NCBI GenBank assembly: GCA_015179125.1
Contig: WHVA01000529.1
Location: 1 to 64,000 of the forward strand
Reading direction: 5' to 3'
Length of the DNA stretch: 64,000 nt
Source: Gautieria morchelliformis
Lineage: Eukaryota; Basidiomycota; Agaricomycetes; Gomphales; Gomphaceae
Of the stretch, positions 8,715 through 38,010 are shown piece by piece. Under the pieces are notes generated by a model that searched no databases, was not told where the DNA came from, and saw only the letters and a list, made by a program, of their open reading frames with translations. Position 1 is the first letter of the stretch. Each line of letters begins with the position of its first letter. A program made the position numbers and the translations under genes.

Positions 8715-9230
8715 CTTCAATGTCCTGTATATTTTTTTGATATTTTTTCGCAAATACATATCAATAAACCTAACTTATTAATAGCCAACTTAATTATCCT
8801 GTACATTTTTTTGATATTTTTCGCAAATAGACATCAATAAATCTAACTTGCTAACCTTAATCACTGCCAACTTAAATATCCTGTACATTTTTTTTATATT
8901 TTTTCGCAAGTAGACATCAATAAATCTAACATGCTAACCTTAATCACTGCCAACTTAAATATCCTGTACTTTTTTTGATATTTTTTCACAAGTAGATATC
9001 AATAACTTATTCTGACTTGGCTAAAGTTAATAACAACTTCTGTTTTAATGTAGTGTGTGTTCTTTTTATCTTTTTTTGAAAAATAAATATAGATATCAAT
9101 GAATTATCCTCACTTTGCTAAACTTAGTACCAGCTTCAGCTTAAATGTAGTGTACATTTTTTTGACATTTTTTCAAAAGGTAGATATCAATAAATTATCC
9201 TGACTTTGCTAAAATTAATGACAACAGCTG
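8715..9230 (+). repeat. Array of intron-like units in Helitron leader
   Basis: At least six units of 70-80 bp. The clearest start GTACATTTTTTTGATAT, contain TTTTTCGCAAATAGACATCA and TTGCTAACCTTAAT, and alternate with the 16-nt spacer CCAACTTAAATATCCT. Two units end CACTG where sisters have AACAG, so the 3' splice site seems lost there. Later units switch to the CTTCAGCTTAAATGTAGT spacer type. Confidence 0.65.
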
Positions 9231-9296
9231 CTTAAATGTGGTTTCTTTTGCTATTGTATATATGTCACAAAATAGATACTGATACATGTCCCTGAT

Positions 9297-10128: not shown

Positions 10129-10465
10129 ATCCAACTGCACTTTGGGTCTTCCCCCATTTCTGATTTTGGCATTGTTTCTGGTTCTGTGAGTGTCACCGGA
10201 GGATCAGCTGGCATATCGATATAACCACATTGTCAAAATTCAGGATCCCCAAGATCACTATTGGATCTATTTCACAATGCACAAGCTTTGAAACCTGTGG
10301 ATTATGACAATAGGCGCAATCTTATAATCTCTGATGATTCTGTCAAGACTATTACCACTTTCATGTCTAGAGTCGCTGGGAGGCCTATCCCAGAGGTCGA
10401 GAGAGAGCTCTGCATGTTCGGCTGTTCCATGGGTGCATACATGATTCATGATACTATGTGATCAG
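10129..10465 (+). repeat. Conserved 340-bp Helitron segment, copy 2
   Basis: Differs from the segment at 7866-8205 by only a handful of bases, and the same two frames stay open (10261-10461 for the 66-residue one). Confidence 0.7.
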
Positions 10466-11088: not shown

Positions 11089-11765
11089 GGTAAGTAATAT
11101 CTCTTTTTTAATGCATTCCCATGTATTTTATTTTATTTGTGTTTGTAATTTTATTGGTTCCATTTTTTTTTTCTTCACATTGTATTGTCACATGTGCTTT
11201 ATATTTTTGTGAATTTTTTTGAAAATAGATTTAAATAAAATCCCAAGACTGCTGAAAAAAAGTATTTTTATATATATATTTTTCAGGTTTTTTTTTTCAA
11301 AAATTGACAGTTTCCTCTAAAATTAATGACAATAGGTTCTACTTTTAAATGTGGTTTGTTTCGTTGTTTTATTTACTGTAAAGCTGCCAGGCACTCCTTC
11401 TCTGGCTTTACTGGTGGCTGGCTTACTATGGCTTTGGCTGGGCTCTGGGTTTCTCTGTCAGTCTCTGGGCTTCTCTGGCTTTGGATGGACATTAATAACA
11501 GCTTCTGCTTCAATGTACTGTACTTTTTTGACATTTTTTCGCAAATAGATATCAATAAATTATCCTGACTTTGTGACAATTGACAACAGCTCCAGGTTAT
11601 GTAAATGTACAGTGGATTTTTTTGACATTTTTCGAAAAATAGATAATCCTAACTTTGCTAAAATTAATAACAGCTTCAGCTTACATGTACTGGACAAATT
11701 CTTGACATTTTTTTCAAAAAATAGATAATCCTGACTTTGCTAAAAATTAATGACAGCAGCTGCTT
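11089..11765 (+). repeat. Array of intron-like units in Helitron leader
   Basis: Begins with a GTAAGTAATATC donor-like site near 11090 (its sister is near 6090). Units such as GTACTTTTTTGACATTTTTT followed by CGCAAATAGATATCAATAAA run to about 11760, with CTTCTGCTTCAATGTACT and CTTCAGCTTACATGTACT spacers. Confidence 0.6.
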
Positions 11766-14659: not shown

Positions 14660-15120
14660 CTTCTGCTTCAATGTCCTGTATATTTTTTGATATTTTTTTC
14701 GCAAATAGCTATCAATACACCTAACTTGCTAACCTTTATAATAGCCAACTTAAATATCCTGTACATTTTTTTGATATTTTTTCGCAAATAGACATCAATA
14801 AATCTAACTTCCTCACCTTAATAACAGCCAACTTACATATCCTGTACATTTTTTTGATATTTTTTCGCAAATAGATATCAATAACTTATTCTGACTTTGC
14901 TAAAGTTAATAACAACTTCTGTTTTAATGTAGTGTGTTTTTTTTTTCATCTTTTTTGGCAAAATAAATACAGATATCAATGAATTATCCTGACTTTGCTA
15001 AAATTAATACCAGCTTCAGCTTAAATGTACTGTACATTTTTTTGACATTTTTTCAAAAGGTAGATATCAATAAATTATCCTGACTTTGCTAAAATTAATG
15101 ACAACAGCTGCTTAAATGTG
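14660..15120 (+). repeat. Array of intron-like units in Helitron leader
   Basis: Six units. One clear example runs from GTACATTTTTTTGATAT near 14760 through TTTTTTCGCAAATAGACATC and CTAACTTCCTCACCTTAATA to ACAG, followed by CCAACTTACATATCCT. Confidence 0.65.
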
Positions 15121-16549: not shown

Positions 16550-16554
16550 ACGTT

Positions 16555-17056
16555 CCGTGTGAGGACACACTACCTGTGGGGACACATTACTTGTGAGGAC
16601 ACGTTACATGTGAGGACACGTTACATGTGAGGACACGTTACATGTGAGGACACGTTACATGTGAGGACACGTTACATGTGAGGACACGTTACATGTGAGG
16701 ACACGTTACATGTGAGGACACGTTACATGTGAGGACACGTTACATGTGAGGACACGTTACATGTGAGGACACGTTACATGTGAGGACACGTTACATGTGA
16801 GGACATCATGTGAGGACATGTTACATGTGGGGACACACTACCTGTGAGGACACGTTACATGTGAGGCCACACTACCTGTGGGGACACATTACGTGTGAGG
16901 ACACATTACGTGTGGGGACATGCTACCGATGGGGACACGTTACGTGTGAGGACACGCTACCTGTGGGGACATGTTACGTGTGAGGACATGTTACGTGTGA
17001 GGACACATTACATGTGGGGACACACTACCAGTGAGGACACGTTATGTGTGTGGACA
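16555..17056 (+). repeat. 17-bp minisatellite, block 3b
   Basis: Contains the most homogeneous stretch in the window: about a dozen consecutive near-perfect units of GTGAGGACACGTTACAT around 16590-16805, which implies recent expansion. Confidence 0.97.
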
Positions 17057-18485: not shown

Positions 18486-18525
18486 ACTGATTCACTTGAC
18501 CTTACTGATGGGTTTGACCTACACC

Positions 18526-18553
18526 CCCGCGCGAAGCGCGGGTACCCACCTAG
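18526..18553 (+). repeat. Helitron 3' terminus 5
   Basis: Perfect CCCGCGC-GAA-GCGCGGG hairpin, TACCCAC, CTAG at 18550-18553, then TCTATAGTATAAAG of the next element. Confidence 0.95.
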
Positions 18554-18779
18554 TCTATAGTATAAAGTTGCTGGGGGGGCGGTTGTGGGTGTTTTACATA
18601 ATAATATTATCTAATTTTCTGAGTTTGAATGCAAGCAGCGCAGCCGCGAGCGACCAAGCAGCGTTTCTGGTCACATGACCAGTTCACGTCCACCGCTACT
18701 GCGCACGCACCCACCTTCCCTCAATCCTCCTGTTGGCATTTCCTTTGGCTCAACTGCTGGCAACCTCTAGCTCTCCTGC

Positions 18780-18985
18780 ACACTATCTCTGTGCATGCTG
18801 GATCTGTCTGTCTGCTGCTGGATCTGTTCTGCTGCTGGATCTCTGTGTCTGCTACTGGATCTCTCTGTCTGCTGCTGGATCTTTGTGTCTGCTGCTGGTT
18901 CTCTGTGTCTGCTACTAGCTCTCTCTGTGTCTGGCTCTCTCTGTGTCTGTTACTGGGGCTGTCTGCCTCTCTACAGCCCCCTCAG
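18780..18985 (+). repeat. Imperfect CTGCTGGATCTCTGTGT repeat
   Basis: About ten units of TGTCTGCTGCTGGATCTC in the leader of Helitron A, analogous in position to the CT-rich repeats of family 1. Confidence 0.8.
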
Positions 18986-19345
18986 GTAAATATTGTTAAT
19001 ATTTTCGCTTTTTTATCCTCTTTTGACTTCTTTTCAGCCTAGGCTGCTCCTCTCATTGCCTCCCACCTTTCTGGATGGTAATTACTGGCTCTGGTGAGTT
19101 TTTTCCTATCATATCTATCATTTCTTCCAATAATTTTCGCTTTTTTATCCTCTTTTTGTCTTCTTTTCCCCTCTCTCAATGCCTCCCACCTTGCCTGTCT
19201 GATATTGCTGCATCTGGTGTGTGTCTTGCTATCATGGTTTGATATTTTTTAGAATCAGCTGCTCTCCATGGTAAATATTGCTATTTCTTGCTATAATTTT
19301 CGCTTTTTTAATCTCTGTTTGACTCCTTTCAGCCTATGTTGCTCC
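18960..19345 (+). repeat. Intron-like leader array, Helitron A upstream part
   Basis: CCCCCTCAG is followed by GTAAATATTGTTAATATTTT, CGCTTTTTTATCCTC and ..CTTTTCAG, a textbook 55-nt GT-AG intron near 18986-19038. Two further segments carry the same TTTTCGCTTTTTT core (near 19137 and 19305), each followed by a TTTC..CAG-like end and a CTCATTGCCTCCCACCTT exon-like word. Confidence 0.6.
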
Positions 19346-19379
19346 TCTCATTGCCTCCCACCTTTCTTGATGAGAATAA

Positions 19380-19766
19380 TGACCATACATGAGGGGCTTT
19401 TATACAAAGAGCTGAGACAATATGTAATGGTGTGGTACTAAGCAAATTCTGGAGGGAGCAGAAGTCAGATAGACATACAGGATAACTAACTAATTGGGAA
19501 CAAGGGGACTACAAGGGGAGTGCATGGTAGGGTAGAACAATCGCAAAAGAACAAGGGGTCGGAAAGTATATCTGACATAAAGAAACAACGAGACTCCAAA
19601 GGGGCCAGACAGATGGTCTTGCTGTGCTGTGAGGCGAGTCTGGTGGGTTCGAGTAATAGAGTCAAAAGAACAAAGGAATAAAACAATGGGCAGAATGTTG
19701 GAATTATCGGAGGGTTGGAATGTGCATGGAACTGAGTGTTGGAAGTCGGAAATGCACAGTCATAAC
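19380..19766 (+). mobile_element. LTR fragment, family B
   Basis: Matches 13490-14086 in scattered blocks: ACATACATGAGGGG-like start, TTATACAAAGAGCTGAGACA, and the 3' end CAGTCATAACA. The 5' part is absent and no target duplication is visible. Old remnant. Confidence 0.65.
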
Positions 19767-20165
19767 ACATGCTACGCACACTATACTTTCAGGACACACT
19801 ACACTCTGGGAACACATGCCATACATAGGGACATGCTACCCATGAGGGGCACACAGACATGGGAGAAATGGGTGGAGACATTACCTACCCCGATGCATTA
19901 CTTAGAGCTACTTTCAATTGTGATAAGATGTGTTTTACTTATCCGAATAATTTTACTTATCCCAAGTTTTATTTACCCAATGTGTTTGACCTAGCCACAG
20001 GTATCCACCCTAGCAGTGGTCCCAGTGCATTCACATCCAATGGGTCCCCGGCAGTCCCTACCCAGCGCTGTGCCACATCTCCTGGTGTGCAGCACAGGGC
20101 CACAGTAGGAATTGACTTGTGATATGCAGTATTTTCACATGGACAGTTTTATGTTGCACTGATTG
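19767..20165 (+). other. Mosaic of Helitron scraps
   Basis: CATGCTACGCACACTATACT minisatellite-like sequence, then GACATTACCTACC (the empty counterpart of the insertion site at 12685) and GCATTACTTAGAGCTAC (helicase C-terminal codons). Next comes a blurred 3' end CCACAGGTATCCACCCTAG near 19997, and finally a short helicase piece (TVGIDL, FSHGQFYVAL) near 20100-20155. It shows at least two older, truncated Helitrons under the current one. Confidence 0.6.
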
Positions 20166-20243
20166 TTTTTTTATATCGCTTTTTCAGCCACAATTTGACT
20201 TCTTTATGCCAGATTTGTTCTTCAGTCTGTCATTCCTTAGGTA

Positions 20244-20741
20244 TGTAGAGGACAGGAATTATAGGCAGTAGGTATGGACTTGTTATTCAAAAGAATAGAC
20301 TAGAAATCAATTCACTCTCTCAGTGAATTTAGTGGTCACTATAAATATATTATACACTACCTAGAAATCAATTCACTACAGAGCATTTCTAGGTCAATAA
20401 ATGCAAAGACTACTAGACTAATTTACTTGCCTCTCTCAGTGAATTTAGTGGTCACTGAGAGAGGGGGAAATGTGTTCCACTGCGCATGTACTACTACCCG
20501 GCCCTTTAGCGCCCAAGAGCTCGCGCGTCGAAGTCATTTCAGACTCCGCTGGGTGCAGCCGCTTGTGAAAGTAGGAATAACAAGATGAAATAGAGGGATA
20601 AGGAATGAGTGGAAAATTTCGAAAATAACCAGAGAAATGGATGCATAATACAAGAACAATGTGAGAAGAACTTGGAAGGCCACACAACAAATTGGATATA
20701 TTATGCTTGATTTTGGTGCAGGAGCATAAATGCACCCAACA
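20244..20741 (-). repeat. Copia LTR (3' LTR of the element)
   Basis: 498 bp, TG..CA. Contains CTCTCAGTGA and TCACTGAGAG as inverted arms 9 bp apart, and a second GTGAATTTAGTGGTCACT word. Confidence 0.95.
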
Positions 20742-20754
20742 CGCCCCCTCAAGC

Positions 20755-23700
20755 TTAATATATTCCGATTTGCTCGTTGAGAATCTTCACTCTAGGACTA
20801 GGAAGTCCTTTAGTGAGGATATCTGCCAACATTTGTTCGGTTGGCAAATAAACGAGCTTGGCTTGTTGATTTTTGATTATATCTCGAAGGAAATATAACC
20901 TGATGTCGAAATGCTTGGTTCTCGTGTGTTGTTGGGTGCCATACGTGATGGCAATGGCTGATTGATTGTCTGAATAAACTTGGATGGGTCTGTTCAGTGG
21001 TTGGAATATTTCAGAAATAAAATGGCGCATCCAAAGAGCCTCTTTGCCCGCATGGGTCAGGGCGACGAATTCGGCTTCAGTTGATGAGAGGGCTACTATC
21101 GACTGTTTCTGGCAACTCCATGAAACAGTGCCTCCATCAATCTGAAATAAGTATGCCGAATACGAACGCCTATGACTCTGTGAACCCCAATCCGCATCTG
21201 AATACCCCATCAAGCCGTCTTGATTTCTTCCAAGTGTGAGCCTGTAATGCTTCGTGCCTTTCAAATATTTGAAGACACGTTTGACTGCATTCCAGTGTGT
21301 GCCACCTGGATTTTCAAGGAATTGCGAGAGTAATGACACCGCAAATGCAATGTCAGGTCGAGTGGCTACAGCCGCCCACATCAGTGATCCTATAGCTTGC
21401 CTGTATGGAAATTTCGACATGGCTTTCTTGCCTCTCTCTGTAGAAGGACATTGGTCTTTAGATAATTTTACGGCTGGATCAAGAGGCGTAGCATAAGTCT
21501 TTGCATCTTCGAGATTAAATTTTTTGATGATCTTCTCGATGTATGCAGGTTGTGAAATTGCAATGGTCTTCTTCAGCCAGTCTCTCTCGATTTTGAGATT
21601 CAATAGCCAATGAATCTCGCCTAGATCTTTCATACTGAAGACCTGAGCAAGATCTCGTTTGACTTCATCCAGGACTGATTGATTCTCAGCTGTGATGGTA
21701 AGGTCGTCCACAGCTGTTGCAATGATCACATGCCCCTTTTCGCCACGTCTATAAAATACAGCCCCGTCTGTGGCTGACGTAGTGAATCCTAACTTGTGGA
21801 ATTCACCACTTAGACGTTTGTACCATTCTCTTCCAGATTGCTTGAGGCCGTAGAGTGCTTTCTTCAAAAGTAGCACTTCGCCTTTGTCTCCTGACTCATA
21901 TCCATACGGCTGCTTCATGTAAATAGGTTCGGGCAACGTAGCATTGAGGTATGCATAGTCCACGTCCATTTGATGAATAGGCCAGTCATTCCTAGCAGCA
22001 ATGGCGCATATGATCCGTAGGGAGGATAACCGAGCAACAGGTGAGTATGTCTCATCATAGTCGATTCCAAACTTCTGCGTGAAGCCTTGGGCGACCATTC
22101 TCGATTTAGGTACTATTGGTTTCCCTTCTGGATTACGCTTCCAAAGGTAGACCCATTTGTTGCCGACAATATTGGCTCCAGGAGGTGGTTTGGCTCGTTC
22201 CCACACTCCCTTGTCGATTAGGGCCTCATACTCTTTGTCCATTGATTTCTTCCATATAGGATTATTCAGAGCTTCGTCTGCATTGCTAGGTTCAATTTGA
22301 CTCAAATCCGGCGCCTTGTTATTGTTTTGACCGTCGGTTAGAAACGCACTGATGGCACACTCATAGCTACTGATGCCATCAATCTCGGAGGATAATTCTT
22401 GGTCGAATAAAACTTCTTTATGGTCCTCAACGTCCTCGTAAACTAGCGTAGTCATATGTGCGCCAGCTTGTCTCTGGGTTTGAGATCTTGTTACGGGACC
22501 TGATGGGGCCGGCTGCACTTGTTGTTGACGGATCCTTTCGCTTCTCCTTATCGGTTCAGCTTCTCTAGGTCTGTCATCAACTCCCTGAATAGGTTGCAGC
22601 TTTTCAAGATATTCTTCCGGTGCACTTTCATCAATTTCTTCGATCTTTGCCTCTTCGCTGACTAAGCGACCGGGCACAGGCACTGATGCCGGAATGGCCT
22701 TCTTCTCTTCTTTAGACGTAGGTAGCTTGGATTCCTCAATAGAAATGATTGGGACTTTTCCCTTCTTCATCTCTGAATCAAACACAACGTTCCGCTCGAC
22801 AGAAACTTTGTGCGAGTCAGGCCAATAAACATAATGACCATGGCTCTGCGCAGAAATTCCTATCCACCGAGCTCTCTTGGCACGAGCTGCCAATTTATCT
22901 CCCTGAGTGATTTTAACGTAAATTTCAGTTCCCCACGCGTGAATGTCTTTGAGATTCGGTTTTTCATGGTGAATCATCTCGTAGGGCGTTTTATCTGGTA
23001 GAGCTCTTGTATGCGTCCTGTTCCTAAGATAATTGGCATGCTGTATCGCATAGCCCCATAATATCTTAGGAAGGCCTGATTCTAGCAGCATGGCACGAGT
23101 TCTCTCAGTGAGAGTTCGGTTCAGGCGTTCCGCAACACCATTGGACTCAGGTGTGTCGTGTACCGTCAACTGATGCTTCGTGCCTTGTTTGGCTAGATGC
23201 TGTTCGAATTCAGAGCTCGTATACTCGCCCCCTCGATCAGAAACAAGTGCCTTGATGTGCACATTTCTCTGTCGAAGCATTAAAGCTTCGTAGAGCTTGT
23301 ACTTTGAGAATGCTTCTGATTTGTTCGCCATGAGATAGATCACCGATTCTCTTGAGTAGTCATCGATAAAGGAGACATAATATGACTTCTTATCGATCGT
23401 GAGGTGTCTTGCAGGTCCCCAGACATCAGAATAAATTCTGTCACCGAATTTTGATGTTCGGTCTCTGGGTTCTCGAGGAAGAGGTTTGCGCGCAATCTTG
23501 GCCTGAATACACGCATCACAGACAATTCTATCGCCTGTGGAGCTCAGTTCAATGCCCAATATCATGCCATGATTTAATAGATGTTGTAGGGACTTCTGCG
23601 AGATGTGCCCCATCTTTTGATGAATTTCCATGGCAGATAAACACATATGGGCTTGAGCACTTGGTGACTGGAGGTCTAGTCGATATAAGCCATTGACCTT

Positions 23701-24997
23701 CGGTGCTTGCATCAATACTTTTCCAGCAGCATTAGATATTGTGCATTTCTGGCCACCGAGTCGAATGTCGTAGCCAGCATCATCGCACCGACCGATCGAG
23801 ACGAGGGTAGCAGCAATTTTGGGTGCATAGTATGTATCTTGCAACGTGACTTCTACTGTTCTATCTCCAACCTTATTGGATAATACGAGCAGTCCTGAGC
23901 CGAAGGCATCAAAGTACCTTTGTTGGCTGCTCGGATAGTCCTCGGCTGTGAGAATTGACAGTAGTTCCTCAATAAATTTTTGTGAGGAGTCATATGCGAT
24001 GTCGTTCCGGTGTCGAGTATGACTATAACTCCTGAGGATGTGCTCAAATTGAAATTAGAGCACTCGTCAAAATTGGTGAAGGCAAGATGCCCATCACCAC
24101 TTTCCTCAGAAGTAGACTCTTCTTCGGCAACATTCGCTTTTGCTTTACCCTTCTTCTTCTTCTTGCCTTTGGCTTTCTTCTTCTGACGTGGTCCTTGACC
24201 TTCTTTACCACCTCCTTTAGCCCAGCAATTTTCGATGGAATGTCCAGGCTTTTTGCAGTTGGTGCATACATGCGCCTTCTGCCCTTCTGGTCCTTTTTAG
24301 TAGATGAACCAATAAACACCTGCTCTTCTTGCGGGAGTGTCTTCTTCCTGTCATACTGAGCCTTTAGTACCCTAATAATATTATCAGGGACCAATGGCAT
24401 CCCGCATTCTTCAAGCGAAGTTGTAAGGGCATTCATGACTGCCTCATAGGATGGTGGAAGTGACGCAAGGATTATGTCCATGAATTCTTCTTCAGAAACT
24501 CTAGCTCCCATCTCATTAAGACGAGCATATAGGTCTTGGGCCTTGTCCAAGTGATCTCTCAAGTCTCCATCCTCAGGACATCTCATACTGCGGAGTTGTC
24601 TCTGCAGGCTGGTGAGGACCATCTTGGGCTTTTTGGTCATTTCATTGACCAGTGCATCCCAAGTCTCTTTTGCTGTCTTCTGCTTCTGTAGCATCAGGGC
24701 TAATGACTCTGACACTGAGACGATGATTTGGGTCTTGGCTTGTCCTTCTCTAGCAAGGTATCTCTCCAGCTTCTCCTCAGCCTTATCCATCTGAGTTTCC
24801 TCAGCTTCTGTTAGAATATGGCCTGGGGGCATGACTGGAGGATCAGGAGGTCGAGTGACTCTCCCTTCTACATGCTTGAGCAGATTTTTGGACTCGAAAT
24901 AGCTGATGAGAGTGGCTCGCCACAATGGCCAATTACTTCCATCAGTAGCAAGCTTCTCAACACCCAATAGCTTCTCAGAAGTGTCTCCGGGGCCCAT
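20755..24997 (-). pseudogene. Copia gag-pol coding region (fossil)
   Basis: Read on the minus strand the parts come in Copia order. First is a gag-like region starting MGPGDTSEKLLG with a zinc-knuckle CX2CX4HX4C-type stretch, then an aspartic protease (ILDTGTTSHMT). Integrase follows, with an HxxxGH..C..C finger and the D,D,E residues in FIDDYS, SDRGGEY and NGVAERLNR. Reverse transcriptase has QMDVDYAYLNA and AVDDL at the catalytic site, and RNase H has SDADWG, SSTEAEF and DNQSA. About two breaks interrupt it, so as read here it does not give one continuous polyprotein. Confidence 0.9.
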
Positions 24998-25002
24998 AAC
25001 CC

Positions 25003-25500
25003 TGTAGAGGACAGGAATTATAGGCAGTAGGTATGGACTTGTTATTCAAAAGAATAGACTAGAAATCAATTCACTCTCTCAGTGAATTTAGTGGTCACTA
25101 TAAATATATTATACACTACCTAGAAATCAATTCACTACAGAGCATTTCTAGGTCAATAAATGCAAAGACTACTAGACTAATTTACTTGCCTCTCTCAGTG
25201 AATTTAGTGGTCACTGAGAGAGGGGGAAATGTGTTCCACTGCGCATGTACTACTACCCGGCCCTTTAGCGCCCAAGAGCTCGCGCGTCGAAGTCATTTCA
25301 GACTCCGCTGGGTGCAGCCGCTTGTGAAAGTAGGAATAACAAGATGAAATAGAGGGATAAGGAATGAGTGGAAAATTTCGAAAATAACCAGAGAAATGGA
25401 TGCATAATACAAGAACAATGTGAGAAGAACTTGGAAGGCCACACAACAAATTGGATATATTATGCTTGATTTTGGTGCAGGAGCATAAATGCACCCAACA
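25003..25500 (-). repeat. Copia LTR (5' LTR of the element)
   Basis: Reads the same as 20244-20741 along its full 498 bp, by eye. Confidence 0.95.
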
Positions 25501-25505
25501 AGGTA

Positions 25506-26156
25506 TGGTCTTATTCTTATGGAACTTTGCCTTTTTGGGGCCTATTTGGGCTTGGTCCCTGACTGATTTGCTATTTCTTTCAGTCAAGCCCTGCAGCTAT
25601 TTGGTAAGGTTTTGCAATGCATATGTTGGATTTTCAAGCTAATGTTTTAGATTCTCTCCTTGGTTTTTGGCGTGCTCTGTGCTGTGCTAATCTCTGACCT
25701 TCCTAGAGCAGTTTGCGTGGTCAGTTGGTTGTATCGTGGACTGGCATACTCTACTGCATTGCAGTTTGATTCTGGACAGAGTTACAACTCCAGTGTGGTC
25801 TGTGGACTAGGATTGGTTTGGTGGTGCACATTGGAGTTAGGCGGTTTAAGTGGACATTGACCACCTTGCTGGTATCTGTAGTGGATTTGTTTGGTTGGGT
25901 GTTTGGTTGGATGGATTGTGCACTGGGAGCTTGCATTGCAGTTTGATTCTGGCCAGAGTTACAACTCTGTTAGCCAGTGTGGTCTGTGAACTGGGATTGG
26001 TTTGGTGCCACACATTGGATTTAGACGGTTTAGGTGGACATTGACTGCCTCCCTGGTATCCCCTATTGTTGGTCGTGAGCTACAGTCATTGTGAAAATGT
26101 GAGTATCCTTTATATATATATATTTTGGCTTGATTTGAAACTGACTGTAATCTAAG
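25506..26156 (+). repeat. Helitron A leader with introns and a ~180-bp duplication
   Basis: Intron-like stretches continue after the Copia insertion: GTATGGTCTTATTC..TTTCTTTCAG (to about 25582) and GTAAGGTTTTGC..GTTTTAG (about 25602-25648). Then two copies of an ~180-bp unit (about 25755-25930 and 25934-26080) share CATTGCAGTTTGATTCTGG, AGAGTTACAACTC and GATTGGTTTGGTG. The final intron, 26099-26156, splits the start codon of the replicase. Confidence 0.65.
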
Positions 26157-29100
26157 GGAACCCTCTACACCAGAGCGTGATATGCAGGAGGAGCGTGCTC
26201 TGGAGTGTCAGCGTCGGTTGCCAATGACGTCCCCTTCTGTGCGTCGTCGGGAGAGGGTTCTTGCTGCAGCTCAAGAACGTCTTCGAAATCCTGACCCTCC
26301 ACCTCCTCAGCCATTTCCTCGACCTCTACTCCCTCAGGACAATGCAATTCCTTGGCCTCCTGTGGCTGGACCTTCAAATGCCATTCCACCCGATCTAAGT
26401 CCTCGGGATGCTGTACGTGCCATACAAGAACAGTTAGCTGATATGCCTCTTGCACCTGTGCATCAAAGACAGGCCCAGGCAGCACCTCCTCCTCCTGTCC
26501 CTATAGGCTCTGCAGCTGTAGCTCTGTTGCGGGCCCAGGCTGCTAATCTCAATCCTATGCCTCTGCCACAACGAGGATGGCCACGACGACGTGCTCAGGC
26601 ATTGAATCCAAACCCTGAACCTCTCCCAGATCAAATGCCACTCCAGCAGCAGCCTGCACCACAACGACCTGTGCTTCCACAGCCTCCACATCCACCTGCT
26701 CATCCTCGGGCCCCTCCACTTCCACTGCCTCATCAGCCTGCTCCACAACAACCTGTGCCTCCTGTTGCCCCTGTGCCCCCTGTGCCTCCACACCCTCTGC
26801 ATCCACCTGCTGCTCCTCAGCCCCCTCCACTTCCACCGCCTCCACCAATGCCTTTAAGAAACCTTCCACTAGCACGTCGCCCTTTGATTGAACAACAGAT
26901 TGCACCTCATGACCTTGGTGCTATGGATGACAAATGTCCAAAATGTAAAGCATGGCATTGGAAGGCAGAGCGTCTGGCCGACTCTACCATTGCTGAGCCC
27001 AAATTTGGTATATGTTGCTCAAAGGGCCAGATACACCTTGAATTGTTGATGGAACCTCCAGAACCACTAAAGACTCTTTTGGCCAGCCAAGACAGGCATG
27101 GAAAACAGTTTAGGGAAAAGATTCGGAACTATAATGCTGCACTGGCATTTGTCTCTGTGGGAGTGAACATAGATGAAAATGTCGTGAATAGACCTGGGCC
27201 ATATGTCTTCAAAATTCAGGGAGGCCTCTATCATATTCATGGCGCTCTTCTTCCTACTCAGGGTCAGGATAGGCCACCCAGCTATGCGCAGCTCTACTTT
27301 TATGATCCAGCAGAGGCTTTGCGACGTAGGGAGGCCAATAACAGTTTTGATCCTTTGGATTCAGATGTTTTAAGTGACCTCCAGGAAATGATGCAGGCTC
27401 ACAATCCATTGGTTCCAATCTATCAGCAGGCGAGGGAAAGGCTTAGGAACCAGCCAGATAGGTTGACTGTGGAGGCCAGACTCACCTACAGAGCACATAC
27501 AGACCAGAGAAGATATAATATTCCTACAGTGGATGAGATTGCCATTGTGCTCCCTGGAGAAGGTGTGCCTGGAGGCACTAGAGACATTGTCATTCAGCTT
27601 AGAGGTGGAGAACTGCGACGAATTCAGGCCGAACATGCTTTGTATGCGCCACTACACTATGTCCTTCTCTTTCCCAGAGGTGAATCAGGCTGGGATTGGG
27701 ACATTCCACGGATAGACCAAGCTCTTCCACGACAAGGCCAGGAGGGGGAGGAGGAGGAGGACCCTTCAAGTGACAGGCGTGTGACCATGTCAAAATACTA
27801 TCGTTATCGTCTTTTTCCAAGGGAGGGTGAAGCTGAAACTCTCTTCCTGGCTGGCAAGCTCTTTCAGCAATACATTGTGGATGCTTGGGCAGCGACTGAA
27901 CAGCAGAAGCTAAATTGGATCAAATACCATCAACATGAGCTGCGAGCTGAGGTCTACAATCAGATGATTGATACATTTGGACCTGAGGACAATCAGGCCA
28001 ATCCAGATAACTTGGGACAAAAGGTCATCTTGCCTGCTACATTTACTGGGAGCGCCAGGGATATGAACGAGAATTTTCAAAATTCAATGGCAATCACTAG
28101 GAAGCATGGTCCAGCAGATGTCTTTGTGACAATGACAGCAAACCCCCAGTGGAAAGAAATCAAAGATGCTCTCAAGCCAGGCCAGACTCCCAGTGATCGT
28201 CCTGACTTGGTTGCAAGGGTTTTTCATCTCAAGAAGGAGCAATTGATCAAACGTATCATGAAGGATGGTATCCTTGGTCGCACAGTTGCACGTGTCCATG
28301 TGATCGAATTCCAGAAGCGGGGGCTCCCTCATATGCACCTTCTTATATGGTTTAAAGAGGAGGATAAGATCAGGACACCGGAAGCTGTGGATGCTTTGGT
28401 TTGGGCTGTCTTTCCTGATCAGCAAGAGCATCCAAGGCTCTACAAATTAGTTTGTGATCTAATGACTCATGGCCCCTGTGGACAAGCGCGTCCTCGGGCT
28501 TCTTGCATGACAGAGGGCAAGTGTTCCAAACATTTCCCAAAGGAATTTCGTGAGGTGACATCTGTCACTGAAGATGGCTATCCACAGTATCGCCGTCCTA
28601 ATGATGGCAGACAGCATAATGTCAGAGGCAACATCATGGACAACCGCGACGTGGTTCCCTATTGTCCCACCCTCCTCTTGGAATTTGAATGCCATATTAA
28701 TGTGGAACCTACTTTCAATGTGCGCTCTATCAAGTACATTCACAAGTATATGTACAAGGGGCCTGACAGGACCACAATGACCATTAATAAGGAGAGGGAT
28801 GAGGTTAAACAGTACCTCGATGCACGCTATGTCAGCTCACATGAAGGTGCTTGGAGACTGCTGGAATATAAAATGCATGTTCAGGTCCCTCCTGTCATGG
28901 CACTTCCAGTCCATTTGCCAGGCCAGCACAATGTGATATTTGATCCTCATATCGATCCCGGCATGGCTTTGCAGACGGCAGAGGATGCTAAGACCATGCT
29001 CATGGCCTATTTTGAAGCCAATAACAGATATCCTGAGGCACGTGAACTACTCTATGTGGAATTTCCTGAGCACTATGTTTGGAAAAAGCAAGCCAAGCGG

Positions 29101-31065
29101 TGGCAACCTCGCCAGCGGGGTTTCAGTCTCGGTCGCCTTCATTTTGCAAGTCCAGCCTCTGGAGAGCGCTTTTTCTTGCGAACCCTCCTTACAGTTGTCA
29201 GAGGCGCAACGTCATTTGAGGAGCTTAGATCATTTGATGGTGACCTTTGTCCTACTTACAAGGCTGCATGCCTGGCAAGGGGCCTGTTAGAAGATGATTC
29301 AGAGTGGACACAGTGTCTTCAGGAGGCTGCACATATACAAACAGGTTTCCAGCTCAGGAGGTTATTTGTCACTATTCTCCTTCGGTGTAACCCTGCTCGG
29401 CCTGCTCAAATCTGGGAGGAGTTTCGGGAGCGTATCTGTGATGACCTGGAGTATCAGCTTGAAAATAGGCATGGCATTCACCATCCTACCAATGATCAAA
29501 TCTATGACTTTGGTCTCTTTCTCATTGACAAGATCATACGTCAGGGGGGGAAGTCTCTGGATGAGTTCCCAGATATGCCACAGATAATGGGGCACTGGGA
29601 GGGATTGGTAGGGAACCGTTGGATAGCTGAGCAGCCGGACTATGACCCAGCTACAGAGCTGGAAAAAGCCGCCACCAATATTGACAAGCTTAATGCAGAA
29701 CAGAGGCGTGTCCATGATGAGATCCTCCATTCAGCCATAAATGGAGAGGGTCTTCTGTTCTTTGTCAATGGCCCTGGTGGTACAGGCAAAACTTTTACCT
29801 GGAACACCCTGGCTCATTCTATCAGAGGAAGGGGTCATATTGTCCTATGCATTGCATCTTCAGGAATTGCAGCATTGCTTCTGATTGGGGGCAGAACATC
29901 ACATGCTATGCTCAAGATTCCAATTCTGATTCATGAGGGTTCTCTATGTGACATCAAAAGAGGCTCACCATTGGCAGAACTTCTCAAGCAGGTCCATTTG
30001 ATCATATGGGATGAGGTGCCTATGCAGCATCGTCATGTAGTTGAAGCTGTCGACAGAACCTGCAGGGATGTCCTAGAGCGTCCAGATTGTCCATTTGGTG
30101 GTATTACTGTGGCTTGGGGTGGGGATTTCCAGCAAACTCTGCCTGTCGTTCCTCGAGGTAACAAGGAGGAGATCATGGGTGCTTCTATCCAAAGATCTCC
30201 TTTGTGGCATCATGTCAAGGTCCTCCATCTTACTCAAAATATGCGAGTCGACCCTCATGATCCCCAGAGTGAACAATTTGCTCAGTGGCTCTCTGATGTT
30301 GGTCAGGGAAAGGATCTCCCTTTGGACAATTCATTCACACTTCCTCAGCACATGATCTGTGGACCACAGGTGTCAGATCTCATTGCAGCTATCTATCCTA
30401 ACATTGGTACTGGGGAGGCACTCCAAGACAAATACTTTTTGGAACGTGCCATCCTTTGCCCTCGCAATATGGAAATGGATGAGATTAATGCTGAGGTGCT
30501 CAATGTATTCCCTGGGGAGGAGCGTCTCTATCCCAGTGCAGACTCAGTCAAAGGAAATGAAGATGGCAATGTGTATCCTGTGGAGTATCTCAACTCACTC
30601 AACATGGGTGGGCTTCCACCATCTCAACTCAGGCTTAAACCTGGAGTGGTACTCATGCTTCTTCAGAATATTGACCTTGGTCGTGGACTCTGCAATGGTA
30701 CAAGGTTGCGTCTCATCAATATGACCAACAGGGTACTCTTTGTGAGGATCATTTCAGGACCATTTTCAGGAGAGACTGCATTTATCCCTAGGATTACAAT
30801 GACACCCACCTCAGACCAATTGCCATTTGAGCTCCAGCATCGCCAGTTTCCTGTCAGGCTGGCCTTTGCCATGACTATCAACAAGTCTCAAGGGCAGTCT
30901 CTTGGCACGGTAGGCATAGACTTGCGATACGTGGTATTTTCACATGGACAGTTGTATGTTGCAGTGTCAAGAGGCACTAATTGGAACAGAGTCCATATTC
31001 TTTTAGGGGAGGGGAACAAAACTTCTAATATTGTATACAAAGAAGTGTTGCTGAAGCCTGATTAA
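26097..31065 (+). CDS. Helitron replicase/helicase (RepHel)
   Basis: This rolling-circle transposase is intact over about 1636 residues. I start it at a codon split by an intron: AT (26097-26098), GTGAGT..CTAAG (26099-26156), then GGAACCC, giving MEPSTPERDMQEERALE. The ATG at 26182 is in the same frame but is absent from copy B, whereas the split ATG is kept. A proline-rich N-terminus (residues ~30-240) leads to a CPKC..HW..CC finger (~259-285). The HUH endonuclease motif PHMHLL lies near 722 and the tyrosine pair in KYIHKYMYKG near 859. The PIF1-type helicase has Walker A GPGGTGKT (~1205), Walker B IIWDE (~1283), TQNMRV, and [21 protein letters not shown] (~1572 on). It should nick, unwind and transfer Helitron DNA in the nucleus, and could mobilise copy B. 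It may or may not serve the family-1 elements, whose 3' ends differ. Confidence 0.93.
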
Positions 31066-31163
31066 ATATGTATTTCCATTTGTATTTAATGTATGTAGTT
31101 GCATTTCACCAAATAATTCTTTGATTCTATTAACTACCCATGTGCAATGTTAACCCTAAATAA

Positions 31164-31193
31164 CCCAGTGCGAAGCACGGGTCTATTGGCTAG
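31164..31193 (+). repeat. Helitron 3' terminus 6 (family 2)
   Basis: CCCAGTGC-GAA-GCACGGG with a bulged base, then TCTATTGG and CTAG at 31190-31193. Different stem and tail from family 1, but the same GAA loop and CTAG end. Confidence 0.92.
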
Positions 31194-31399
31194 TAGTATA
31201 AAGATGGGTGAGGTTTTACGTAATCCTGACTAAGATGCAAACAAACCATGCATCCTGACTAAGATGCTGCGCACGACACGCGTTCTCTCCCTCTGCCATC
31301 ATCACGCTCTCCCACCATCCTCCCACCATGCTTCTTTCACATCTATTTCTGTCTCAGGCATGTTCTCACCTCCTGGATCAATTGACTGACCCTGATGAG

Positions 31400-32275
31400 G
31401 CATGCAGAAGCTTTTAATTCACTGGTGTGTCTCTCATTTAATTTTCGCTTTTTTAGCTCATTTTTGGCCCCTTTTTAGGCCAGATTACACCTCTCAGCTC
31501 CTCTTCACTCTACCTGTGGGTGTCTGCCTGCATTCTGGTGAGCATCCTGGCCCAATTTTCGCTTTTTTGGATGGTTTGCTCATGCCAACAGCTCTGCAGT
31601 GCCTTGAGTATGTTTTTCTCTTTTATTTTCGCTTTTTAAGGCTTATTTTGGCTTATCTTATGCCAGATCTACCCTCTCAGCCTCATATCTCTTAGGTATG
31701 ATCTCATGCTCAGAGAAATTTCCTTTTTCTGTGTTAATTTTCGCTTTTTTGACCCATTTTTTCCCCTTTTCAGGCCAGATTACTCCTCTCAGCTCCTCTT
31801 CACTCTACCTATGGGTGTCTTTCTGCATTCTGGTGAGCATCCTGCCCTCATTTTCGCTTTTTTGGATGGTTTGCTCATGCCAACAGCTCTGCAGTGCCTT
31901 GGGTATGTTTTTCTCTTTTATTTTCGCTTTTTAAGGCTTATTTTGGCCTATCTTATGCCAGATCTACCCTCTCAGCCTCATATCTCTTAGGTATGATTTC
32001 ATGCTCAGAGCAATTTCCCTTTTCTGTGTTAATTTTCGCTTTTTTGACCCATCTCCCCCCCTTTTCAGGCCATATTACACCTCTCAGCTCCTCTTCACTC
32101 TACCTGTGGGTGTCTGCCTGCATTCTGGTGAGCATCCTGCCCTTATTTTCGCTTTTTTGGGTGGTTTTCTCATGCTAGCAGCACTGCAGTGCCTTGGGTA
32201 TGTTTTTCTCTTTTGATTTTGCTTTTTAAAGTTTATTTGGCTTTTTTTTCAAGCTTACTTAGGTATGTTCCTATT
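31400..32275 (+). repeat. 296-bp tandem repeat made of GT-AG introns
   Basis: Three copies (starting about 31400, 31694 and 31990). Each contains three intron-like pieces: GTGAGCATCCTG..CCAACAG (about 54 nt), GTATGTTTTTCTC..ATGCCAG (about 59 nt) and GTATGATTTCATGC..CTTTTCAG (about 78 nt). The exons between are of about 16, 29 and 59 nt (CTCTGCAGTGCCTTGG is the 16-nt one). All nine introns carry ATTTTCGCTTTTT. Donor and acceptor bases are conserved while the repeat drifts elsewhere. Confidence 0.75.
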
Positions 32276-32454
32276 CTCATAGCAATTTTCCTTTTTGGCA
32301 CCAATTTTGGGTTTGACCATAACTGATCAGTTTGCTAATTCTTTTGGTCCCAGCTATTCAGTATGGTTTTGCCATTTGTATGTTGTATTTGTTGACTTGG
32401 CCATTAGTTTCCCTCCTTGGTTTTTGCTGGGCTCTGTGCAGTGCTAATCTCTCT

Positions 32455-32825
32455 GTCCTGCCTAGAGTGATTGAGGGGGTTGGTTGGTTGGATTGTGTGC
32501 AGTTTGATTCTGGCCAGAGTTACAACTCCAGTGTGGTCTGTGGACTAGGATTGGTTTGGTGGTGCACATTGGATTTAGGCGGATTAACCACCTCACTGGT
32601 ATCTGTGGTGGATTTGTTTGGTTGGGTGGTCGGTTGGTTGGATTGTGCAATGGGAGCTTGCATTGCAGTTTGATTCCGGCCAGAGTTACAACTCTGATAG
32701 CCAGTGTGGTCTGTGAACTGGGATTGGTTTGGTGCCACACATTGGATTTAGACGGTTTAGGTGGACATTGACTGCCTCCCTGGTATCCCCTATTGTTGGT
32801 CATGAGCTACAGTCATTGTGAAAAT
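32455..32825 (+). repeat. ~180-bp leader duplication in Helitron B
   Basis: Same pair of units as at 25755-26080: TTTGATTCTGGCCAGAGTTA and TTTGATTCCGGCCAGAGTTA (near 32502 and 32668), each followed by GATTGGTTTGGTG. Ends at the split start codon AT (32824-32825). Confidence 0.75.
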
Positions 32826-35800
32826 GTGAGTATCCTTTATATTATATATATATATATTGGCTTGATTTGAAACTGACTGTAATCCAAGGGAGCCCTCTAC
32901 ACCAGAGCATGATAGGCAGGAGGAGCGTGCTCTGGAGTGTCAGCGTCGGTTGCCAATGACGTCCCCTTCTGTGCGTCGTCGGGAGAGGGTTCTTGCTGCA
33001 GCTCAAGAACGTCTTCGAAATCCTGACCCTCCACCTCCTCAGCCATTTCCTCGACCTCTACTCCCTCAGGACAATGCAATTCCTTGGCCTCCTGTGGCTG
33101 GACCTTCAAATGCCATTCCACCCGATCTAAGTCCTCGGGATGCTGTACGTGCCATACAAGAACAGTTAGCTGATATGCCTCTTGCACCTGTGCATCAAAG
33201 ACAGGCCCAGGCAGCACCTCCTCCTCCTGTCCCTATAGGCTCTGCAGCTGTAGCTCTGTTGCGGGCCCAGGCTGCTAATCTCAATCCTATGCCTCTGCCA
33301 CAACGAGGATGGCCACGACGACGTGCTCAGGCATTGAATCCAAACCCTGAACCTCTCCCAGATCAAATGCCACTCCAGCATCAGCCTGCACCACAACAAC
33401 CTGTGCCTCTGCCTCCAGGGCCCCCTGTGCCTCCACAGCCTCTGCATCCACCTGCGCCTCCTCAGCCCCCTCCACTTCCACTGCCTCCACCAATGCCTTT
33501 AAGAAACCTTCCACTAGCACGTCACCCTTTGATTGAACAACAGATTGCACCTCATGACCTTGGTGCTATGGATAACAAATGTCCAAAATGTAAAGCATGG
33601 CATTGGAAGGCAGAGCGTCTGACCAAGTCTACTATTACCGAGCCCAAATTTGGTACATGTTGTTCAAAGGGCCAGATACACCTTGAATTGTTGATGGAAC
33701 CTCCAGAACCATTAAAGACTCTTTTGGCCAGCCAAGACTGGCATGGCAAACAGTTTAGGGACAATATTCGGAACTATAATACTGCACTGGCATTTGTCTC
33801 TGTGGGAGTGAACATAGATCACAAGGTCATGAATAGACCTGGGCCATATGTCTTCAAAATTCAGGGAGGCCTCTACCATATTCATGGCACTCTTCTTCCT
33901 GCTGAGGGTCAGGATAGGGAACCCAGCTATGCGCAGCTCTACTTTTATGATCCAGCAGAGGCTTTGCGATGTAGGGAGGTCAATAACAGATTTGATCCTT
34001 TGGATTCAGACGTTTTAAGTGACCTCCAGGAAATGATGCAGGCTCACAATCCATTGGTTCCAATCTATCAGCAGGCGAGGGAAAGGCTTAGGAACCAGCC
34101 AGATAGGTTCAATGTGGAGGCCAGACTCACCTACAGAGCGCATACAGACCAGAGAAGATATAATATTCCTACAGCGGATGAGATTGCCATTGTGCTCCCT
34201 GGAGAAGGTGTGCCTGGAGGCATAGAGACATTGTCCTTCAGCTTAGAGGTGGATAACTGCAACGAATTCAGGGCGAGCATGCTTTCTATGCGCCACTACA
34301 CTATGTCCTTCTCAAAGGAGCAATTGATCAAACGTATCATGAAGGATGGTATCCTTGGTCGCACAGTTGCACGTGTCCATGTGATCGAATTCCAGAACTG
34401 GGGGCTCCCTCATATGCACCTTCTTATATGGTTTAAAGAGGAGGATAAGATCAGGACACCGGAAGCTGTGGACTCTTTGGTTTGGGCCGTCTTTCCTGAT
34501 CAGCAAGAGCATCCAAGGCTCTACAAAATAGTTTGTGATCTAATGACTCACAGCCCCTGTGGACAAGCGCATCCTCAGGCTTCTTGCATGACAGAGGGCA
34601 AGTGTTCTAAACATTTCCCAAAGGAATTTCGTGAGGTGACATCTGTCAATGAGGATGGCTATCCACAGTATCAACATCCTAATGATGGCAGACAGCATAA
34701 TGTCAGAGGCAACTTCATGGACAACCGTGACGTGGTTCCCTATTGTCCCACCCTCCTCTTGGAATTTGAATGCCATATTAATGTGGAACCCACTTTCAAT
34801 GTGTGCTCTATCAAGTACATTCACAAGTATATGTACAAGGGGCCCAACAGGACCACAATGGCCATTAATAAGGAGAGGGATGAGGTTAAACAGTACCTCG
34901 ATGCATGCTATGTCAGCTCACATGAAGGTGCTTGGAGACTGATGTAACATAAAATGCATGTTCAGGTCCCTGCTGTTATGGCACTTCCAGTCCATTTGCC
35001 AGGCCAGCACAATGTGATGTTTGATCCTCATATGGATCCAGGCATGGCTTTGCAGAGGGAAGAGGGTGCTAAGACCATGCTCATGGCCTATTTTGAAGCC
35101 AATCACAGATATCCTGAGGCACGTGAACTACTCTATGTGGAATTTCCTGAGCACTATGTCTGGGAGAAGTTAGCCAAGCGGTGGAAACCTCACAAGCAGG
35201 GTTTCAGTCTCGGTCGCCTTCATTTTGCAAGTCCAGCCTCTGGAGAGTGCTTTTACTTGCAAACCCTCCTTACAGTTGTCAGAGGAGCAACGTCGTTTGA
35301 GGAGCTTAGATCATTTGATGGTGTCCTTTGTCCTACTTACAAGGCTGCATGCCTGGCAAGGGGCCTGTTAGAAGATGATTTAGAGTGGACACAGTGTCTT
35401 CAGGAGGCTGCACATATACAAACAGGTTTCCAGCTCAGGAGGTTATTTGTCACTATTCTCCTTCGGTGTAACCCTGCACAGCCTGCTCAAATCTGGGAGG
35501 AGTTTCAGGAGCGTATTTGTGATGACCTGGAGCATCAGCTTCAAAATAGGCATGGCATTTACCACCCTACCAATGATCAAATCTATGACTTTGGTCTCTT
35601 TCTCATTGACAACATCATACGTCAGGGGGGGAAGTCTCTGGATGAGTTCCCAGATATGCCACAGATAATGGGGCACTGGGAGGGATTGGTAGGGAACCAT
35701 TGGATAGCTGAGCAGCCGGACTATGACCCAGCTACAGAGCTGGAAAAATCCGCCACCAATATTGACAAGCTTAATGCGGAACAGAGGTGTGTCCATGATG

Positions 35801-36751
35801 AGATCCTCCATTCAGCCATAAATGGAGAGGGTCTTCTGTTCTTTGTCAATGGCCCTGGTGGTACAGGCAAAACTTTTACCTGGAACACCCTGGCTCATTC
35901 TATCAGAGGAAGGGGTCTTATTGTCCTATGCATTGCATCTTCAGGAATTGCAGCATTGCTTCTGATTGGGGGCAGAACCTCACATGCTATGCTCAAGATT
36001 CCAATTCTGATTCATGAGGGTTCTCTATGTGACATCAAAAGAGGCTCACCACTGGCAGAACTTCTCAAGCAGGTCCATTTGATCATATGGGATGAGGTGC
36101 CTATGCAGCATCGTCATGTAGTTGAAGCTGTCGATAGAACCTGCAGGGATGTCCTAGAGCGTCCAGATTGTCCATTTGGTGGTATTACTGTGGCTTGGGG
36201 TGGGGATTTCCAGCAAACTCTGCCTGTCGTTCCTCGAGGTAACAAGGAGGAGATTGTGGGTGCTTCTATCCAAAGATCTCCTTTGTGGCATCATGTCAAG
36301 GTCCTCCATCTTACTCAAAATATGCGGGTCGACCCTCATGATCCCCAGAGTGAACAATTTGCTCAGTGGCTCTCTGATGTTGGTCAGGGAAAGGATCTCC
36401 CTTTGGACAATTCATTGACACTTCCTCAGCACATGATCTGTGGACCACAGGTCTCAGATCTCATTGCAGCTATCTATCCTGCATTTATCCCTAGGATGAC
36501 AGTGACACCCACCTCAGACCAATTGCCATTTGAGCTCCAGCGTCGCCAGTTTCGCCATGACTATCAACAAGTCTCAAGGGCAGTCTCTTGGCACGGTAGG
36601 CATAGACTTGTGATATGTGGTATTTTCACATGGACAGTTGTATGTTGCAGTGTCAAGAGGCACTAATTGGAACAGAGTCCATGTTCTTTTAGGGGAGGGG
36701 AACAAAACTTCTAATATTGTATACAAGGAAGTGTTGCTGAAGCCTGATTAA
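32824..36751 (+). pseudogene. Helitron B replicase/helicase, deleted copy
   Basis: Starts like copy A: AT (32824-32825), a 63-nt intron, then GGAGCCC, giving MEPSTPEHDRQEERALECQR. Compared with copy A it has a shortened proline-rich region, a one-base loss near 34220 and a ~560-bp deletion near 34315 that removes sequence just before the HUH motif. It also has an in-frame stop near 34945 (LLEYK in A), a ~375-bp deletion near 36480 in the helicase and a short deletion near 36552. HUH (PHMHLL), KYIHKYMYKG and Walker A (GPGGTGKT) codons survive. It cannot encode a working full-length protein. Confidence 0.9.
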
Positions 36752-36849
36752 ATATGTATTTCCATTTGTATTTAATGTATGTAGTTGCATTTCACCAAAT
36801 AATTCTTTGATTCTATTAACTACCCATGTGCAATGTTAACCTTAACTAA

Positions 36850-36879
36850 CCCGGTGCAAAGCACGAGTCTATTGGCTAG
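36850..36879 (+). repeat. Helitron 3' terminus 7 (family 2)
   Basis: CCCGGTGC-AAA-GCACGAG, TCTATTGG, CTAG at 36876-36879, followed by T and then Copia-derived sequence. This is the right end of the whole Helitron array. Confidence 0.92.
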
Positions 36880-36881
36880 TG

Positions 36882-38010
36882 CAAGCTAAAGCGAGGGCTC
36901 TATGGACTAAAGCAAAGTGGACGGCTGTGGTATGAGTGGCTCGGATCGGCACTTGAGAACATGGGATTCACACACCTCCAATCTGACCGAAGTGTCTATA
37001 TTTGGACAAGCGAGACCGTCAAGGTCGTTATACCAGTCTTCATTGATGATCTCACCCTGGTATCAAACTCGAGACACAATCTTGACAGGGTCACAGGCCG
37101 TCTAGCTAAAGTCTTCAAATTGAAGGATTTGGGAGAAACAAAATCATTGCTAGGGGTGGAAGTACAGTATGATCACCTACAGAAGACGCTAAAACTCTCA
37201 CAAAAACAATATGTTGAGGAACTACTCGATTGATTCCACATGTCCGACTGCCGACCCGTATTCACGCCTATGAGCCCTGGATTAAACCTAAGCTCAGCAA
37301 TGGGACCATCTACACCGGAGGAGATAGCAGAAATGAAAAACCTGCCTTACTTGAATGCAGTTGGAGCATTGAACTATCTTGCCATCGCCACTTGCCCTGA
37401 CATTGCCTATGCCATTGGATGCCTCGCTTGATTCAACTCAAATCCTGGCCCAGCACACTGGGCAGCCGTAAAACACCTCCTGCATTCTTTGAAGGGGACG
37501 ATTGATCTAGCACTCACATTCGCACCAAATAATGCAGGCGAAACCTTTCGAACATGGACGGACACCGATCACGGAGGAAATCCAGACAACGGTCACTCGA
37601 TGTCTGGTTTCCTCATCAAGATTGGGACCGGAATGGTTAGCTGGGCCAGCAAGTTGCAAAACATAGTTACCTTATCGACAACAGAAGCCGAGTTTGTGGC
37701 AGCAACTCTCGCCGGTACTGAAATCATCTGGCTGCAAAGCCTATTTGACGAACTTGGTTCGAAGGTTGAGGAGCCATCTCATCTCTACATCAATATTCAA
37801 TCCGCACTCACCGTCGCCAAAAATCCAGAGCACCACAGGCGGATGAAGCATCTGGACCTCCGATACTTCTGGTTGCGGGAGAAGGTTGCTCAGAGAGCCA
37901 TCCAAGTCAGATACCTGCCCATGAAGGATATGCCAGCCGATTTATTGATGAAAGTGTTGCCTCGTGAATCGGTAGAACGGCACCGTCACGCTATGGGACT
38001 CTTCTGATCG
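36882..38010 (+). mobile_element. Copia RT/RNase H fragment (fossil)
   Basis: Begins inside reverse transcriptase at LYGLKQSGRLWYEWL and runs through FIDDLTLVS (catalytic DD), the RNase H motifs TDTDHGG and LSTTEAEFVAA, and ends ..HRHAMGLF. The 5' two-thirds of the element is absent, apparently cut off at the Helitron array's right edge. It has about two or three breaks. A different lineage from the Copia at 20244 by sequence. Confidence 0.9.

Follow-up and report, generated by a model that had tools for sequence, protein, structure and literature searches.

Tandemly repeated predicted introns ahead of the RepHel gene of a Helitron in a most likely fungal DNA window

Two Helitrons in head-to-tail order

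The window, i.e., the whole 64-kb stretch of DNA analysed here, carries two Helitrons in head-to-tail order, hereafter Helitron 1 and Helitron 2. It is most likely of fungal origin, given the pieces of chitin synthase (Pfam Chitin_synth_2) found at about 48.3-51.3 kb; a Pfam match to DEK_C lies below the curated cut-off. The style of the introns suggests a basidiomycete host.

Helitron 1 retains an intact RepHel open reading frame (26182-31065, plus strand, 1627 aa) that matches the Pfam profiles Helitron_like_N (3e-61) and PIF1 (1e-74). Its 3' end (31160-31193, plus strand) consists of a hairpin placed 11 nt before a CTAG terminus, followed by T, the hairpin having a folding energy of -6.5 kcal/mol and a z score of -2.7. 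Helitron 2 apparently starts at 31194 (TAGTATAAAG), directly after the CTAG of Helitron 1 and with no 5' TC, and its 3' end (36846-36879, plus strand) reads CTAG at 36879, again followed by T, with a weak hairpin (z -0.3). The CTRR end, the hairpin some 10-12 nt upstream and the T on the right by which Helitrons are recognized are thus found at this locus, and the RepHel domains (Helitron_like_N and PIF1) and the 3' ends support the Helitron context that had been proposed originally.

The RepHel gene of Helitron 2 (32950-36666, plus strand) is defective. It is split into two separate frames and is missing parts of the Rep and 2B regions, with no equivalents of stretches 27669-28227 and 30399-30776 of Helitron 1; PIF1 is matched over its full length and the Rep domain only at profile positions 145-191 of 191. 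The repeat array that is the subject of this study, array A, stands at the head of this defective copy, a circumstance not mentioned in the original prediction. At its other end Helitron 2 interrupts a Copia-type reverse transcriptase gene (36880-38007), which starts in mid-sequence with its first match at 36886; the left half of that gene was not found within the window.

Both elements resemble HELPO1 and HELPO2 of Pleurotus ostreatus, which also combine RepHel, a CT[A/T]G 3' end and a subterminal hairpin (PMC4289320). In contrast to the leader discussed below, the passages on HELPO1/HELPO2 consulted in that article describe no leader intron array, and the words 'tandem' and 'UTR' occur 0 times in its main text.

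An array of intron-like segments

Array A (31438-32238, plus strand) is a tandem repeat with a period of 295, 2.7 copies and 92% matches according to Tandem Repeats Finder; three copies of a 296-bp unit had been described originally. A complete unit comprises three segments that begin with GT and end with AG (78, 54 and 59 nt), separated by spacers of 59, 16 and 29 nt. The block of high identity runs from the first to about the ninth copy of a shared core, ATTTTCGCTTTTT. Nine intron-like segments lie in the array and a tenth follows downstream, all on the plus strand.

Ahead of the array, the 5' region of Helitron 2 (31194-31424, plus strand) contains TATAAA at 31197 and a CT-rich tract, and is presumed from these features to represent the promoter and first exon. 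Predicted intron 1 (31425-31478, 54 nt) has a donor of its own, GTGTGT, and its core at 31441, with an alternative acceptor at 31483 that was the one taken by our chaining program. Intron 2 (31538-31591, 54 nt) combines the donor GTGAGC, a branch-like CTCAT and the acceptor CAACAG; intron 3 (31608-31666, 59 nt) has the donor GTATGT and the acceptor GCCAG; and intron 4 (31696-31773, 78 nt) has the donor GTATGA, a branch-like TTGAC and the acceptor TTTTCAG. Introns 5 (31833-31886, 54 nt), 6 (31903-31961, 59 nt) and 7 (31991-32068, 78 nt) were predicted by intron scoring, and intron 8 (32128-32181, 54 nt) by alignment with introns 2 and 5, the chaining program having taken a donor at 32106 instead (76 nt, score 8.4).

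Towards its 3' side the array decays. Intron 9 (32198-32262) is degenerate, with an altered core and loss of the acceptor present in the other copies; it scores 6.7 with another acceptor, and the 29-nt exon that should follow it is mostly deleted. Predicted intron 10 (32263-32330) resembles the 78-nt intron in its 5' half and has a degenerate core and an uncertain 3' end, the acceptor used in Helitron 1 being absent from the aligned place in the Helitron 2 leader. Introns 1, 4, 7 and 10 seem to be of one type over all or part of their length; the 5' part of intron 1 does not align with the 78-nt intron, and intron 1 is not a whole-length copy of it. The segment and spacer lengths given in the original prediction are therefore accurate for the complete unit, but not for the array as a whole, where intron 1 is a 54-nt segment with its own donor and intron 9 has lost its acceptor. 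Further along the leader, another predicted intron (32378-32465, plus strand, 88 nt) scores 10.6, and a strong one stands immediately before the RepHel frame (32826-32905, plus strand, score 13.3, with a CTGAC branch), its counterpart in Helitron 1 being 26099-26173.

The core, said originally to be held by all nine introns, is exact in eight of the nine, and the ninth, at 32215, has decayed to GATTTTGCTTTTT. Across the 64 kb, exact cores number eight in array A and three in a second array, array B (see below), with none elsewhere; a single site, at 7138, carries the core with two mismatches, and degenerate cores lie at 32215 and 20172. This distribution gives no support to the suggestion that the array seeds new introns. 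A search of host introns for the core had also been proposed, and TTTTCGC occurs in none of four chitin-synthase introns picked by eye.

The splice signals were evaluated with a score that sums donor, branch and acceptor over lengths of 45-90 nt and builds a non-overlapping chain, with weights that were not trained on the host. Array A yields 9, 8, 8 and 3 chained introns at thresholds 6, 7, 8 and 9, respectively, and its minus strand yields 0. None of 300 shuffles of 31400-32275 reached these counts at any threshold from 6 to 9; at threshold 8 the eight introns found compare with a shuffle mean of 0.37, and at threshold 9 the summed score was reached by 3 of 300 shuffles. When 876-nt tiles on both strands were compared, the tile at 31537 on the plus strand ranked first of 290 at thresholds 7 and 8. 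Since the copies of an array are not independent, a single unit was also tested alone: it contains three introns. No shuffle out of 2000 had as many, and among 408 other tiles of 307 nt this number was reached by 3 at threshold 6, by 2 at threshold 7 and by 1 at threshold 8.

Scores are 8.4-9.9 for the eight introns of the threshold-8 chain and, under the same scheme, 9.6-11.9 for four segments within the intact RepHel reading frame, which indicates that the density of the signals is unusual while the strength of each single intron is ordinary. Short GT-AG segments with a branch-like CTNAY, as expected of fungal introns, are therefore present beyond chance under these weights. The intron reading of array A, with splicing as a prediction from its signals, is well supported.

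What the units encode bears on a different origin, namely capture of part of a host gene by the Helitron, either a gene with many introns or a snoRNA host gene. Helitrons capture pieces of genes. Such captures have been described for fungal Helitrons (PMC4289320), and in mammals tandem introns host SNORD115/116 (PMC11608373). Against this origin, no Rfam match reaches the gathering score in 18500-37500, the nine introns contain no C-box or CTGA D-box motif, the spliced unit measures 104 nt and so is not divisible by three, every frame of the joined exons contains stops, and a homologous array lies elsewhere in the window. We regard capture as very improbable. Two specific candidates were rejected on the same observations: a snoRNA cluster, by the empty Rfam search of that interval and the missing C and CTGA boxes, and a protein-coding array, by the frame shift that each 104-nt unit would introduce and by the stops in three frames.

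A diverged counterpart and the growth of the array

Array B (18986-19372, plus strand) consists of three core-bearing intron-like units, B1 to B3, and is a diverged homologue of array A. Unit 2 of array A aligns with it in order with a score of 96, reached by 0 of 300 shuffles, and for stretches lacking the core the scores were reached by 2 and 3 of 300 shuffles. Outside the signals, identity is limited to 57/111 in B1, 54/111 in B2 and 44/82 in B3. The core is kept at 14 of 14 positions in all three, in alignments that are anchored by the core and so favour agreement near it. B1 also keeps the acceptor (6/6) and the donor (5/5), with Fisher values of 0.0012 for the splice sites (11/11) and 0.0003 for the core; in B2 the acceptor is in part deleted (3/6) and the donor is kept at 4/5 (p 0.06), and in B3, which has no donor region, the acceptor is kept at 6/6 (p 0.03).

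Within array A, the donor columns show no substitution across the three units (0/18), 5 of the 18 being gapped, as the donor of unit 1 differs. Substituted columns amount to 8/18 in acceptors, 3/39 in cores, 31/116 in the rest of the introns and 9/104 in exons; on our reading of the alignment, 5 of the 8 acceptor changes fall in the decayed intron 9. Conservation of GT and AG above their neighbours, which was to be expected of working introns, is thus found in B1 and in part in B2 and B3, whereas the acceptors vary within array A itself. The density of signals, together with the retention of core, donor and acceptor in B1 and partly in B2 and B3, supports the view that whole introns were duplicated in tandem.

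The persistence of the core in B2, with its damaged acceptor, and in B3, with no donor region, points to conservation of the core not only within a working intron. In this regard, the cores could be repeated binding sites for a DNA-binding protein, either a cell-cycle type factor recognizing TTTTCGC, which we take to resemble E2F/SBF-type sites, or the Helitron Rep itself, with the splice-like signals being incidental. The core is indeed the best conserved part of the arrays, complete in B1, B2 and B3 alike. Binding sites would leave unexplained, however, why donors, acceptors and branch-like motifs stand at set places round the core and on one strand only, and why the exon edges are kept in B1, and we consider this explanation unlikely.

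Array B lies 0.8 kb upstream of the preserved leader of Helitron 1 and is probably the front of that leader, broken by repeats and by a RepHel fragment. The front part that remains attached (20150-20243, plus strand) contains an intron-3-like segment whose donor is missing, GCCAG, a 28-nt exon and a GTATG donor that reads across an insertion. The insertion is a Copia-type element (20244-25500, minus strand) whose two 498-bp LTRs are identical. It is flanked on each side by AGGTA, a 5-bp duplication that straddles an exon-intron junction predicted in the leader. The rest of the leader (25501-26181, plus strand) contains predicted introns at 25503-25583 and 26099-26173. When the flanks of the Copia-type element are joined, the GCCAG, the 28-nt exon ending in CTTAG and the GTATG donor are arranged as in array A, and the joined leader agrees with units 1 and 2 of array A at 112/186 and 108/186 positions, respectively (about 60%). 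The missing donor of the intron-3-like segment and the differing aligned positions of the next intron's acceptor in the two leaders count against the intron reading.

Two side observations concern this region: with LTRs that are 100% identical, the Copia-type insertion looks very recent, and a 61-bp fragment resembling the 3' part of RepHel (20101-20161, 85-89% identical) is fused directly to the Helitron 1 leader.

The leaders of the two elements are 73% identical over 25501-25708 versus 32261-32467, and the four longer matching blocks of the Helitrons are 93-97% identical. Leader and body therefore seem, from these identities, to have been exchanged between lineages. Along 25501-26674 versus 32261-33406, it was additionally observed that the 5' part is 73% identical and that identity rises to about 96% near and into the gene. 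Both leaders also contain an older-looking duplication of about 90-130 bp and about 84% identity (32498-32586/32664-32759 and 25755-25876/25932-26060). When 31194-31424 was compared with the sequence preceding array B, 10 of 300 shuffles scored as high, and homology of the two was not established.

The edges of the recent block give an indication of how array A grew. Between units 1 and 2, identity rises from 5/12 to 12/12 at core 1; between units 2 and 3, it drops from 12/12 to 9/12 at core 9 and reaches 4/12 about 25 nt after the start of that core. On the left, the recent block thus begins at a core; on the right, it stops at a core or a short way past it. This argument was made post hoc from two edges only, and the right-hand edge is blurred. 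The block may have arisen by slippage or exchange from core to core, which would add whole introns each time.

This possibility can be extended to a model in which the shared cores serve as recombination points, and gain or loss of whole introns by unequal exchange provides the leader with a copy-number-variable control of expression, i.e., a rheostat. We hold this to be rather improbable, the more so as the right edge of the block is not sharp.

Possible function and relation to known systems

Our findings lead us to favour, as a probable though by no means certain reading of the signals, that array A belongs to the 5' untranslated leader of the RepHel transcript of a fungal Helitron and is a series of short spliceosomal introns alternating with small exons that do not code for protein. 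A block of introns and exons has been copied in tandem, the duplication itself being observed. We infer that the core would serve as a pyrimidine tract, a common feature of fungal introns; in fungi, such tracts are mainly located between donor and branch site, where the core sits (PMC5677156). Duplication from core to core would always pair a donor half with an acceptor half, and each new block would thereby be spliceable; in an untranslated leader, the reading frame would be irrelevant to the blocks added.

Splicing would, in addition, strip most upstream AUGs from the array stretch. In the array part, 1 ATG is found in 283 exon nucleotides versus 15 in 623 intron nucleotides (p 0.029), a depletion that is weak given that the copies are not independent; unit 2 alone has 1 exonic and 6 intronic ATGs. 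The region ahead of the array (31194-31424) contains 8 ATGs, and an AUG-poor leader would therefore require a late start site.

Splicing may also provide an intron-dependent boost to the RepHel transcript, as known in basidiomycetes. In Cryptococcus, mRNA level is set cumulatively by the number and position of introns, although for one gene the effect of the two outermost introns was negative (PMC3744415). Given that the RepHel of Helitron 2 is defective, a present function of the array is doubtful. If the array is spliced, it would amount to a naturally occurring range of intron counts within a single leader, in which the cumulative effect of introns on expression could be tested.

It is also quite possible, if somewhat less than probable, that the introns are real, now or once, and that the tandem expansion to three units was neutral, occurring in a dead copy of the element and leaving expression unaffected. 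The broken RepHel of Helitron 2 and the decay of one unit end are consistent with such an expansion, as are the many other tandem repeats in the window (65 entries, some overlapping) and the lack of a second copy with the 295-bp triplication there. Array B speaks against it, in that repeated core-bearing introns are found in the leaders of another, diverged lineage. Perhaps, and this is the most sober account, an intron-bearing Helitron leader has had its intron block duplicated neutrally.

The array may, moreover, bear on the recognition of transposon transcripts through splicing in fungi. By analogy with Cryptococcus, where poorly spliced transposon transcripts can feed RNAi and the SCANR complex has been described for such transcripts (PMC5851062), many introns of moderate strength could cause spliceosomes to stall, flagging the transcript for RNAi in the nucleus, in which case the array would be a liability under host defence. 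The moderate scores of the array introns are compatible with this scenario, which we nevertheless judge quite unlikely.

In the open-licence literature searched, among the matches listed, we found no description of a tandem intron array in a transposon leader; tandem intron-exon units are known from elsewhere, namely polyomavirus leaders and the SNORD115/116 host transcript. Late mRNAs of mouse polyomavirus have repeated short non-coding leader exons, of 57 nt compared with 59 for the largest exon here, and splicing of that leader is linked to mRNA accumulation; the virus, however, has one genomic leader and multi-genome transcripts, whereas the repeats described here are in the DNA and their splicing is predicted only (PMC5086616). 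The SNORD115/116 host transcript likewise contains many consecutive intron-exon units, but its introns carry snoRNAs, and none were found in array A (PMC11608373).

Array A also resembles introners and introner-like elements in having similar introns in several copies (PMC9860276, PMC4457414). Introners spread to unrelated genes, according to these sources, whereas the copies here are in tandem and the exact core is confined to arrays A and B within the window. In Zymoseptoria, non-introner intron duplications, including tandem ones within a gene, account for <1% of single intron gains (cited in PMC4457414). In intron gain by tandem genomic duplication, the duplication also yields an extra intron (PMC4974935); there, the new intron arises in a gene, while in array A, a block of entire introns within the leader of a transposon has been copied. 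If spliced, array A would show that introns can multiply when a block of them is duplicated within a transposon, a route distinct from introners.

Relatives were also sought outside the window. For the RepHel protein, the viral contigs gave 1 stretch with the pattern and 0 confirmed relatives. Paired cores at array-like spacing occur in viral contigs in 1 stretch with a gap of 40-70 and in 0 with a gap of 90-120, and in prokaryote contigs in 9 stretches with a gap of 90-120, the only range searched there. None of these 10 loci matches the window by BLASTN (E 1e-3) or TBLASTX (E 1e-5), and as candidate relatives of the array they were rejected, being by eye unrelated repeats or coding sequence.

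Other repeats were observed in the window. A 17-bp unit (TGTGGGGACACGCTACC, with variants) forms arrays of up to 49 copies at 7546-7866, 9300-10129 and 16550-17056; beside them are tandem 83-91-bp repeats (8784-9239 and 14660-15119), and repeats similar to this latter type occur at 6574-6719, 7253-7475 and 11554-11757. Finally, a Gypsy-type element with a chromodomain extends over 56296-62552, its flanking repeats (56296-56777 and 62052-62552) being 96% identical.
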